DNA of 64,000 nt, taken from positions 62,001-126,000 of the forward strand of contig MWST01000026.1 of assembly GCA_002050235.1 (NCBI GenBank). The letters run 5' to 3'. This document shows, piece by piece, positions 19,577 through 23,382 of this stretch. The stretch's first letter is position 1, and every line of letters begins with the position of its first letter. Made by a program: the position numbers and the translations under genes. Below the pieces are notes generated by a model that ran no database searches, was not told the DNA's origin, and saw nothing but the letters and a program-made list of their open reading frames with translations. Source of the stretch: Polyangiaceae bacterium UTPRO1. GTDB taxonomy: Bacteria; Desulfobacterota; Binatia; UTPRO1.

Positions 19577-20647
19577 TCACGCGAAAACGGACCGGCGCTC
19601 CGAGAGCGCGGCGATCAGCATCCGCTGGATGCGCTCGCGGATCTCCTCCTTCAGCCGGTTCACCAGGAGCTCGTCGCGGTGCGCGTCGGCGCCGTGTTGC
19701 CCCGCGAGATCGATCGGCGGTCCGAATACGAGCCGCCACTTGGTAGGCAGGGGCACGAGTCCGAGCACTCCGAGCCAGGGAAACGTGGGGGTCACGGGAA
19801 AGTAGGGTAGATCGAGGCCGCGCGCCGCCCAGCCCCACCGCGCCAGCACCGGGTGGATCTCCTCCGCACCCACCACCGCGACCGGCACCAGCGGCGCACC
19901 GGTCTCGAGCGCCAGCGCCACGAATCCCCCGCGCCCGAAGCGCTGCAGCCGATAACGCTCGCGGTAGTACTTGCCGAGCCCCTTTGCGCCCTCGGGAAAG
20001 GCGATCACCGCCTGCTCTCGCGCCAGCAGACGGCGTGCATTCTGCGACGAGGCGCGTACGACCCCGAGGCGCGCCAGCAGCGGACCGAGGAACGGCATCC
20101 GGTAGATGAAATCCTCGACCAGCGGGCGTGCCTGCCGTCCGCCGCCGGGGCAGTGCGCACGGAGGGCCTCGGCGATCATCACCCCGTCGTAGGGGAACAT
20201 CCCACCCGAGTGGTTGCCGACCAGGAGCAGGCGGCCGGAGAGCGGCACGTGCTCGAGGCCGATCGTCTCGACCCGCCACCAGCGTTCGTAGAGGACGCGG
20301 AGGAAGGGCTCGAGGCGGGCCCGGAATGCCGGGTCGTACCCGAAGTCCCCGACCCGATCGGCGGTCCCCACCATCCGCATTCTCACGAAAGCGGCGCCGA
20401 GCCCGCCTTCCATGAGGGCGCGACCAAGGTCGGCATAGAAGCCGAGCACCTCCTCGCCGACGCCCCGCAACCAGGCGCCGTAGTCCGGACCCTCCTCGAT
20501 GCCGGCGAGCGCCTCTTCCAGCTCACGCTCGAGAGCGCGCAGCCGCTGTCCGAACGCCTGATGACCGGCTTCGCTCCGGCGCCGCCGCCGGCGCGACTGC
20601 GGCGGCCCGCTATCGTCGGGACGCAAGTCGACTACGCGCCGAGCCAT
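19577..20647 (-). CDS. MGAT-like lysophospholipid acyltransferase family protein (copy 2)
   Basis: 356 residues. An Arg-rich and helical N-terminal extension of about 110 residues precedes the acyltransferase domain. The domain shows LLVGNHSGGMFPYDGVMI, FPEGAKGLGKYYRERY, LVPVAVVGAEEIHPV and LPLPTKWRLVFGPP, closely parallel to the protein at 16387-17208, so the two are paralogues. Predicted membrane-associated lipid acylation; the acceptor is unknown. The gene is convergent with the porin and divergent from the ArsA pair (75-base gap). Confidence 0.85.
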   Translation of the reverse strand: MARRVVDLRPDDSGPPQSRRRRRRSEAGHQAFGQRLRALERELEEALAGIEEGPDYGAWLRGVGEEVLGFYADLGRALMEGGLGAAFVRMRMVGTADRVGDFGYDPAFRARLEPFLRVLYERWWRVETIGLEHVPLSGRLLLVGNHSGGMFPYDGVMIAEALRAHCPGGGRQARPLVEDFIYRMPFLGPLLARLGVVRASSQNARRLLAREQAVIAFPEGAKGLGKYYRERYRLQRFGRGGFVALALETGAPLVPVAVVGAEEIHPVLARWGWAARGLDLPYFPVTPTFPWLGVLGLVPLPTKWRLVFGPPIDLAGQHGADAHRDELLVNRLKEEIRERIQRMLIAALSERRSVFA

Positions 20648-20722: not shown

Positions 20723-21679
20723 ATGCTCGACGCCGCGCTCGAACGCCGCCTCGTCTTCATCACCGGCAAGGGCGGGGTCGGACGGACCGCGGTCGCGACC
20801 GCGCTCGCGCTCGCCGCCGCCCGCGCCGGCAAGCGCACGCTCGTCGTCGAGCTCAATCCGCTCGGCCGCCTCGGCGAGTATCTAGGCGATCTCTCGCTCG
20901 GTTCCGAGCCGACCGAGATCACTCCCGAGCTTGCCGCCGCCGCCATCGCCCCCGCGGTCATCATGGAAGATTTCTTGACGGGCATGCTGCGCATCCGCGC
21001 CCTCGCGCGCCGTCTCCTCGAGAGCCACACCTTCCGCGTCGTCACCGCTGCCGCTCCGGGCCTCGCGGACTTCCTCACTCTCGTCCGCATCGCCGAATGG
21101 GAGGGCGAGCGCACCGGGTTCAAGCGCAAGCGCCACCGCTTCGATCTCGTGATCGTCGACGCTCCGGCCACGGGACATTCGGTGCCGCTGCTCGCGACTC
21201 CGGGAACGCTCCTCAAGATGCTGCCCTTCGGTCCGCTCACCAACACGGCGCGCGATCTGGCGCTCCTCCTCGGCGACCCGAAACGGGCGGCGGTCGCCAT
21301 CGTCACGCGCGCGGAGGAGATGGCGGTCAACGAAACCCTCGAGCTGGCGACGGCGCTCATGCGGATCGGCGTCGCCCTGCTGCCGGTGATCGTGAATGCG
21401 GTCGATCCGTTCCGCTTCACGCGGGTCGAGGCGCACCGCCTGCGCGTCGATCCGCCCGACGTGCCTCCGGCGTGGCAACCCTACCTCGGCGTCGCGCGCT
21501 TCGCCCTGGCGCGCCAGCGCACCGCCGAGCGCCAGATTCGCCGCCTGACGCAGGCGCTCCCCGAGCGCCCCGTGAGCCTGCCGCACGCGCCGGCCGGGCG
21601 CATCACGCTGGCGGCGCTCGAGCCGCTCGCCGACGCGATCGCGCGACCGCACGCCCGCGGCTCCCGGCGGGTCTCGTGA
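20723..21679 (+). CDS. ArsA/Get3-like ATPase, subunit A (P-loop Lys replaced by Arg)
   Basis: 318 residues from the ATG at 20723. Member of the deviant-Walker-A ArsA family of dimeric ATPases. The loop reads GKGGVGRTA (15-23): signature Lys16 is present but the P-loop Lys is Arg21. The usual DPA switch is also altered (VVELNPLGRL). The later DAPATGHSVPLL switch is kept. The stop overlaps the start of the next ArsA-like gene by 4 bases (GTGA), so the two are translationally coupled and probably form a heterodimer. No ArsB, ArsC or ArsR is nearby, so arsenite export is unlikely; role unknown. Confidence 0.85.
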   Translation: MLDAALERRLVFITGKGGVGRTAVATALALAAARAGKRTLVVELNPLGRLGEYLGDLSLGSEPTEITPELAAAAIAPAVIMEDFLTGMLRIRALARRLLESHTFRVVTAAAPGLADFLTLVRIAEWEGERTGFKRKRHRFDLVIVDAPATGHSVPLLATPGTLLKMLPFGPLTNTARDLALLLGDPKRAAVAIVTRAEEMAVNETLELATALMRIGVALLPVIVNAVDPFRFTRVEAHRLRVDPPDVPPAWQPYLGVARFALARQRTAERQIRRLTQALPERPVSLPHAPAGRITLAALEPLADAIARPHARGSRRVS

Positions 21680-22905
21680 CCGGCATCATCTCGAACGACT
21701 ACGAACATCCGGCGGAGCGCGGGCGCGTCGACGCCGGCGGCCGTGCCGGTGACGCCGAACCCGGCGACCATCGGCCGCCGCCGGAGCGCGCGGACGCCGA
21801 CGTCCTCGACGGCCTCTTGCGTCGGCAGCGGCTCCTCGTGTGCGTCGGCAGCGGCGGCGTCGGCAAGACCACCGCCGCAGCCGCACTCAGCGTCGCCGCC
21901 GCGGGCCACGGCCGGCGAACCGCCGTCCTCACGATCGACCCGGCGCGACGCCTGCGCGACGCGCTCGGCATCGCTAGTCTCGACGGCACGCCGCACCGCG
22001 TACCGCTCGGACGCCGGGCGCGGGGCGGCTCCCTCGACGCCATAGTGCTCGACACCAAGCGCACCTTCGACGAGCTGATCGAGCGCTACGCCCCGACGCG
22101 CGCCGCTGCGGAGCGCGTGCTCACGAATCGCATCTACGAGAGTCTCTCGACCGCCCTGGCCGGCTCGCAGGAGTACATGGCCATGGAGCGCCTGCACGCG
22201 CTCGCCGGCAGCGGCGACTACGACCTGCTCGTGGTCGACACGCCGCCGACGCAGCATGCCCTCGACTTCCTCGAAGCGCCGGAGCGCTTGACCGCGCTCC
22301 TCACGTCGCGCGCCGCCGCCATCCTGCAGAATCCGAGCTTGATCCTCGCGCGCGAAGGCTCGCGCATCGCGCAAGCCGTGCTCGGCGCGGTGCTGCGCGG
22401 ACTCGAGCGTCTGACCGGCCTCGAGATGCTGCGCGACGTCGCCGAGTTCGTCGGCGGCCTCGAGGAATTCTCGGCCGGCTTCCAGGAACGCGCCGCCGAG
22501 GTCTCCAGGTTCCTGCGCGCCCCCGAGACCTCGTTCGTGCTGGTGACGACGCCGGAGAGCGCCCGCATCGCCGAGACGCTGGCCTTCCACCGCGAGCTCG
22601 TACGCGCCGGGCTGCCCTTCGCCGGATTCATCGTCAATCGGGTGCTGCCGCCGGGAGTGCTCGGCCATCCGCCTTTCCCCGACGTCGAGGGCGCAGCCGC
22701 GGCGGATCTCGCGTTCGGGCGCAAGCTCGCCGCGCTGCACCGGCGTTTCACGGCCCTGGTACGGGCCGAGCGCGCCGAGATCCGGCGCCTGACAGCGGCA
22801 GCGCCCGACGCGCTCGTCGTCGCGGTGCCGCTAGCAACCGAAGAGCCGAGCTCGCTCTCGCGCCTGGTCGGCTTGAGCGCTACCTTCCGACGCGCCGATT
22901 CGTGA
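21676..22905 (+). CDS. ArsA/Get3-like ATPase, subunit B (signature Lys replaced by Ser)
   Basis: 409 residues from a GTG that overlaps the upstream stop. After a low-complexity, charged N-terminus of about 45 residues the loop reads GSGGVGKTT (58-66): the P-loop Lys64 is present but the signature Lys is Ser59. Switch regions are normal (LTIDPARRLRDALG, then VDTPPTQHALDFLEAP). A helical, Ala/Leu-rich insert (about 200-290) is in the position where Get3-type proteins bind hydrophobic clients. Together with the preceding gene it would make a dimer with one composite, complete ATP site. Function unknown. Confidence 0.88.
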   Translation: MTGIISNDYEHPAERGRVDAGGRAGDAEPGDHRPPPERADADVLDGLLRRQRLLVCVGSGGVGKTTAAAALSVAAAGHGRRTAVLTIDPARRLRDALGIASLDGTPHRVPLGRRARGGSLDAIVLDTKRTFDELIERYAPTRAAAERVLTNRIYESLSTALAGSQEYMAMERLHALAGSGDYDLLVVDTPPTQHALDFLEAPERLTALLTSRAAAILQNPSLILAREGSRIAQAVLGAVLRGLERLTGLEMLRDVAEFVGGLEEFSAGFQERAAEVSRFLRAPETSFVLVTTPESARIAETLAFHRELVRAGLPFAGFIVNRVLPPGVLGHPPFPDVEGAAAADLAFGRKLAALHRRFTALVRAERAEIRRLTAAAPDALVVAVPLATEEPSSLSRLVGLSATFRRADS

Positions 22906-22951: not shown

Positions 22952-23302
22952 TCAGCTCGGCGAGGGCTCGGACTTGGCGGGCGGCCGGCGCCGCGGCTTC
23001 GGCCGCTCGCGCTCGGCGAGCAGGCGGTCGACCTTGATGTTGAGGTTCACCAGGCTGCCTTGCAGCGCCTCGATCTTCGACAGTAGCCGATTGTAGTCGG
23101 CCTTCGACGGCAGGTTCAGCAATCCGAGCACCATCTGCATGTTTCGATCGACCTGTCCCTTGGTTTTGACCGCGCGCTGCAATGCCGAGGAGAAGGCCTC
23201 CGCCATCTTGGGGTTGGCGAGCAATTCCTCGGCGAACTGCAACAATCTCGCCTCTCCCGTCTCGACGATCCAGGAAAGGAGCGTCACCTCACGTCGCGCC
23301 AT
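22952..23302 (-). CDS. Small phasin/PhaE-like helical protein
   Basis: 116 residues from an ATG with AGGAGG 7 bases upstream. All-helical and amphipathic. The segment LGLLNLPSKADYNRLLSKIE followed by ALQGSLVNLNIKVDRLLAE resembles the C-terminal 'LPT/S-(K/R)-x-(D/E)-hydrophobic heptad' coil of polyhydroxyalkanoate granule proteins and PhaE subunits; the tail is basic and Pro-rich. No PHA synthase is visible here, so a granule role is only an inference. Convergent with the ArsA-like pair. Confidence 0.7.
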   Translation of the reverse strand: MARREVTLLSWIVETGEARLLQFAEELLANPKMAEAFSSALQRAVKTKGQVDRNMQMVLGLLNLPSKADYNRLLSKIEALQGSLVNLNIKVDRLLAERERPKPRRRPPAKSEPSPS

Positions 23303-23382
23303 CACTGCCCCTCCTGATTGTCAGCGGAAAGGCCGCCATCTATAGTGACGCGCTTTCGAGGGGTCAAGAAAGCGCGCCGCTC

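Follow-up and report, generated by a model that had tools for sequence, protein, structure and literature searches.

Two overlapping genes in the window, by which we mean the whole stretch of 64,000 nucleotides that was analysed, encode ArsA/Get3-like proteins whose P-loops deviate in different ways. The first protein lacks the P-loop lysine and the second lacks the signature lysine. The original prediction took these for complementary losses in an undescribed ATPase with one complete composite site and one dead site. The locus raises the question of what kind of pair this is, whether the two losses belong together and what they leave of the ATP sites. The positions are given in Table 1, where the subunits are named after their homologues.

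Table 1. Positions in the window of the gene pair, its key codons and the neighbouring genes.
Feature	Position	Strand	Details
bagA-like gene	20723..21679	+	318 aa; ATG start at 20723, stop ending 21679
bagB-like gene	21676..22905	+	409 aa; GTG start at 21676, stop ending 22905
GTGA overlap	21676..21679	+	bagB start and bagA stop, from the sequence
BagA K16, signature lysine	20768-20770		AAG
BagA R21, in place of the P-loop lysine	20783-20785		CGG
BagB S59, in place of the signature lysine	21850-21852		AGC
BagB K64, P-loop lysine	21865-21867		AAG
Phasin-like small protein gene	22952..23305	-	117 aa; convergent with bagB
PlsC-type acyltransferase gene	19577..20647	-	PF01553, E=1.2e-11; divergent from bagA, 75-bp gap

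Identity of the gene pair

The open reading frames, the motifs (K16/R21 and S59/K64) and the GTGA overlap of the original prediction were all reproduced exactly. The P-loop reads GKGGVGRTA in the first protein and GSGGVGKTT in the second. A third change, absent from the prediction, was observed in the first protein, which has an asparagine (N45) at the switch-I catalytic position corresponding to D57 of yeast Get3; the second protein has D88 there. The first protein also has T22, the Walker-B/switch-II residue D146 and the adenine-site residue N225, and the second has the Walker-B residue D188 and the adenine-site residue N321. The overlap suggests that the two genes are translationally coupled. 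Judged from substitution rates against the same-genus relative SJ588 (L147), with dN/dS about 0.056/0.48 for bagA and 0.10/0.55 for bagB, both genes are real and under purifying selection, and these values rule out that bagA is a pseudogene or in decay.

Sequence and fold matches bore out that both proteins have Get3/ArsA-type folds, and placed them with BagA and BagB of Mycobacterium tuberculosis (Rv3679/Rv3680). Both of these chains are found within one crystal entry, 6bs3, which bears the title 'Crystal structure of ADP-bound bacterial Get3-like A and B in Mycobacterium tuberculosis'; entries 6bs4 and 6bs5 also belong to this system. The second protein of the window matched 6bs3_B in the sequence search (E=6.5e-64), its predicted model (pLDDT 80) had 6bs3_B as top Foldseek match (TMt 0.84), and its best NCBIfam model was BagB (E=1.1e-89; 301 of 521 bits, under the equivalog cut-off). 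The best NCBIfam model for the first protein was BagA (E=2.7e-27; 96 of 400 bits, again under the equivalog cut-off); both equivalog models are named for M. tuberculosis. The predicted fold of the first protein (pLDDT 90) gave a TM of 0.83 to 6bs3_A versus 0.69 to 6bs3_B. When phmmer was used by itself, chains of ArsA and of archaeal Get3 came slightly above 6bs3 for this protein, and for the intermediate BagA relative L018 the best solved match was 6bs3_A. We therefore assigned the first protein to BagA on its NCBIfam score and its fold, together with the order of the genes and intermediates like L018. Homology and the presence of two subunit types were shown by sequence and fold, and the pair is a homologous variant of BagA/BagB and not an equivalog. 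The closest named genomes were the unclassified deltaproteobacterial MAGs SJ588, NC_groundwater_1023 and DP_19.

The view of the pair as an undescribed ATPase was not borne out, since the homologous BagA/BagB has a solved structure; BagA/BagB is also cited in PMC10597346, in references 54 and 55 (Hu et al. 2019 and Whitaker et al.). The window pair shares with the M. tuberculosis pair the tandem A-then-B order and the folds of both chains. M. tuberculosis BagB (GAGGVGKTT) is likewise without the signature lysine and has the P-loop lysine and the switch-I aspartate, and M. tuberculosis BagA (GKGGTGKST) has the signature lysine and no switch-I aspartate. However, M. tuberculosis BagA keeps the P-loop lysine and has a glutamate at switch I (EVEG), whereas window BagA has arginine and asparagine at these positions.

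Among the better known relatives, Get3/TRC40 of eukaryotes and archaea has in common with the window pair the fold, the intradimeric Walker A ATPase design and the position of the helical client-binding region, but it forms a homodimer whose two sites are equivalent. Its CXXC zinc motif was not found in the window pair, which has 0 cysteines in BagA and 1 in BagB, and we know of no GET receptor for this pair. Get3d (NosGet3d, AtGet3d) provides a precedent for a change of the P-loop lysine to arginine with slow ATPase activity (PMC10248533), but it forms a homodimer, carries an alpha-crystallin domain at the C-terminus and keeps the trans-lysine. The arsenite pump ATPase ArsA belongs to the same superfamily and also has paired ATPase units, but these are two halves of one chain, each with GKGGVGKT. 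The ArsA equivalog model gave 58 and 50 bits for the window pair against a cut-off of 650. As in the original prediction, no arsenic-resistance genes were recognised among the neighbours scanned, at about 14.7 to 28 kb. The scores, the motifs and the neighbours together ruled out an arsenic pump.

Catalytic residues across the family

BagA and BagB domains were gathered across the window's class, in a sample of its phylum and in named genomes (Actinobacteria, Myxococcota, Deltaproteobacteria and others), and the P-loop was not used as a criterion in the scan of the named genomes. The set, in which a few genomes are present twice, holds 190 BagA and 193 BagB domains. They form 176 adjacent pairs with the gene order also found in the window, 173 of them with complete motifs. 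The signature lysine was found in all 187 informative BagA and in 0 of 193 BagB sequences; the assignment behind these counts is not fully independent of the motif pattern, because the profiles were seeded with motif-fitting pairs, later sequences being assigned by whole-domain score. The P-loop lysine was present in 193/193 BagB and in 161/187 BagA (25 with arginine, 1 with threonine), and the switch-I aspartate in 193/193 BagB and in 61/187 BagA. The Walker-B aspartate was found in all informative sequences of both subunits and the adenine-site asparagine in nearly all. The one-sided division of residues was seen in each of the 173 informative pairs. After clustering at 50% identity BagA and BagB still differed at the P-loop (p=0.019) and at switch I (p=3e-12), as they did at 60% identity (p=7e-4 and p=2.5e-19, respectively). 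Because this large family shows the same division in all of its informative pairs, the pattern goes beyond chance, and at the level of sequence it was shown that catalytic asymmetry is a rule across the BagA/BagB family.

These counts also bear on whether the two losses in the window are coupled. The idea of a new, undescribed asymmetric ATPase defined by two substitutions that are coupled and compensate each other agrees with the finding that every genome sampled from the window's genus has the R21/S59 combination, and with the 18 adjacent pairs in which a BagA with a P-loop arginine accompanies a BagB without the signature lysine. However, BagB is without this lysine whatever BagA carries. 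At the BagA P-loop, genera within the window's own family differ: arginine is found in one, lysine in another and threonine in a third, and BagB reads GSGGVGKTT throughout. Together with the solved structure of the homologues, this makes a coupled pair of substitutions very improbable. The complementary losses did not hold up as one event: no BagB in the set has the signature lysine, 161 of the 187 BagA have both lysines, and BagA changed from lysine to arginine or threonine several times while its partner BagB stayed the same. Homologues with both lysines and independent variation, which the original prediction had named as grounds against it, were thus both found; they dispose of the matched pair of losses and leave the single active site standing.

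On the BagA tree, a quick tree with several long branches, 6 changes are needed to explain the P-loop states, and strongly supported branches force at least 4 of them. By trees and counts the P-loop changed at least 4 times in BagA and never in BagB. Read from the tree, and not as a dated reconstruction, the loss of the signature lysine in BagB appears to be old and is universal in the sample, and the changes from lysine to arginine or threonine in BagA would have arisen several times later. The trans-acting lysine would have been lost early in BagB, after which the BagA site could no longer be completed and the catalytic residues of BagA would have drifted, often at switch I and sometimes at the P-loop. 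Such drift would reflect relaxed selection on BagA's own catalytic residues, because BagB cannot supply the trans-lysine, and R21 and N45 of window BagA may be its products. On present sequences the window pair is a further-decayed variant of the known BagA/BagB machine, with an asymmetry that is shared family-wide. What is new, with 6bs3 compared by title, sequence and fold, would be the quantified residue rule, the secondary loss of the BagA P-loop lysine and the phasin-like neighbour.

The ATP sites and the pairing of the subunits

In Get3 the P-loop lysine binds phosphate in cis, the switch-I aspartate positions the attacking water, and the signature lysine crosses the dimer and stabilises charge during hydrolysis (PMC10248533). 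Get3(D57N) has ATP bound and does not hydrolyse it (PMC12506534). We consider it likely that the window pair forms a BagA-BagB heterodimer with one hydrolytic composite site and one impaired site. In this heterodimer K16 of BagA would reach over to complete the site built on K64 and D88 of BagB, and hydrolysis would be confined to that composite site. The site of window BagA is without the P-loop lysine, the switch-I aspartate and the trans-lysine. Since T22, D146 and N225 are kept, the BagA pocket probably still binds nucleotide, and it may be a non-hydrolysing or very slow structural or regulatory site, like engineered Get3(D57N). Thus the heterodimer of the original prediction appears probable, and its combination of one complete composite site with one defective site is supported and strengthened by the family-wide pattern. 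To call the BagA site dead from the P-loop change went too far, and 'impaired' is safer, because NosGet3d, with a P-loop arginine and a switch-I glutamate, still hydrolyses ATP slowly (kcat 0.28/min versus 2.7 for yeast Get3; PMC10248533). The missing trans-lysine and the aspartate-to-asparagine change are better evidence of a defective BagA site than the P-loop change.

The slow ATPase activity of NosGet3d and the retention of T22, D146 and N225 are also what would be expected if both sites hydrolysed, with arginine replacing the BagA P-loop lysine and another BagB residue replacing the trans-lysine. We regard this as unlikely, because the N45 of window BagA is the change that was used to block hydrolysis in Get3 (PMC12506534), because the switch-I aspartate is gone in two thirds of BagA and in no BagB, and because NosGet3d retains an acidic switch-I residue and its own trans-lysine.

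The heterodimer with one hydrolytic site was further considered in the light of how the two genes are distributed. Among 148 genomes of the class, searched for BagA with one query sequence, 101 had both subunits and 45 had neither; G323 had only BagA and G308 only BagB, so that 101 of the 103 genomes with either subunit had both. In 11 genomes no bagA was found beside bagB, with little upstream DNA examined at loci L160, L210 and L223; bagA was found elsewhere in 11/11, and the best match had the signature lysine in each. In some Myxococcota bagA and bagB lie at separate loci, and some f5 genomes have a bagA-like gene without an adjoining bagB (L110, L123, L125, L131 and L137). By eye, from the translation, a methylmalonyl-CoA-mutase-like gene was seen to follow these lone f5 genes. 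Because of the lone genes, not every paralogue obeys the pairing rule strictly. Both they and the separate loci would fit with subunits that form mainly homodimers, BagB hydrolysing without a trans-lysine and the BagA homodimer having other duties. Yet both sites of a BagB homodimer would be without a trans-lysine, the K16 position is kept without exception in BagA though BagA's own site decays, BagA and BagB co-occur nearly perfectly and both chains are together in 6bs3, and we find homodimers improbable as the main form.

The one-composite-site rule, in which the BagB pocket is completed by the BagA lysine, is testable and would extend to the tuberculosis pair. BagA/BagB is a Get3 relative that is widespread in bacteria and for which no client or mechanism was found in the literature searched. 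By analogy with Get3, the paired helical domains may open and close, driven by ATP, and in this way hold and release a hydrophobic client, a mechanism that we put forward tentatively. In this lineage the handling of a client could possibly be tied to the phasin-like protein of the adjoining gene.

The phasin-like neighbour and other loci

Among the 66 loci with BagAB of the window's subtype, some of which represent one genome in two collections, at least 51 have a relative of the phasin-like gene in the same position; for the majority of the remaining 15, the DNA ends too early or the region lies outside the comparison. The gene was absent at L053/L256 and was also absent downstream at L274 and L275. 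At 8 Anaeromyxobacter loci (L163, L169, L172, L175, L184, L186, L189 and L198) a phasin-like relative is divergent and lies directly upstream of bagA; these relatives were recovered with E values of 9e-21 to 4e-7 by a profile built without them. No phasin-like matches were found beside the type II BagAB pairs of the class in the DNA examined. In the genomes checked, the copy number of this family ranges from 0 to 3. At E values up to 0.01, and with a possible coiled-coil bias, TIGR01837 matched 27 of 31 phasin-like relatives (best 4.3e-8) and PF05597 matched 19 of 31 (best 5.2e-7). The window copy itself was below the threshold of the phasin model, with 20.6 of 94.7 bits. A class-III-like PHA synthase (E=6.4e-69, under the curated cut-off) is also encoded in the window's genome. 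The literature search gave no publication tying phasins to Get3/BagAB, bare matches to the word 'phasin' being left aside.

In the phasin-like neighbour BagAB has a concrete candidate for a partner or client. A two-subunit Get3-like targeting ATPase, with one hydrolytic site and a second, regulatory site that does not hydrolyse, might serve this protein, as a bacterial chaperone or targeting factor for polyhydroxyalkanoate or lipid inclusion proteins, which we regard as speculative and rather doubtful. It is similarly doubtful that the window's pair would be a strongly asymmetric form of such a targeting system. On the other side of the pair, synteny places the acyltransferase gene divergent from bagA both within the window's family and among some f4 relatives; a functional link to BagAB is uncertain.

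A second BagAB pair is present in the window's genome (G000:C27:3860-5952; L002 and L003), with GKGGVGKST in BagA and GSGGVGKTT in BagB and with no phasin-like neighbour in the DNA examined. Because of this second pair, cross-pairing between the subunits of the two pairs is possible. At L010 (G092) bagA and bagB lie in a single frame of 688 aa. A natural fusion was rejected, as the stretch before the BagB start resembles an out-of-frame BagA tail, and a frameshift within that tail probably accounts for the single frame. A bagB about 41% identical to that of the window (L168, CAMDBH010000008.1) was seen in a MAG whose title, Klebsiella pneumoniae, looks like a mislabel; elsewhere this MAG has a bagA with a P-loop arginine (L233).
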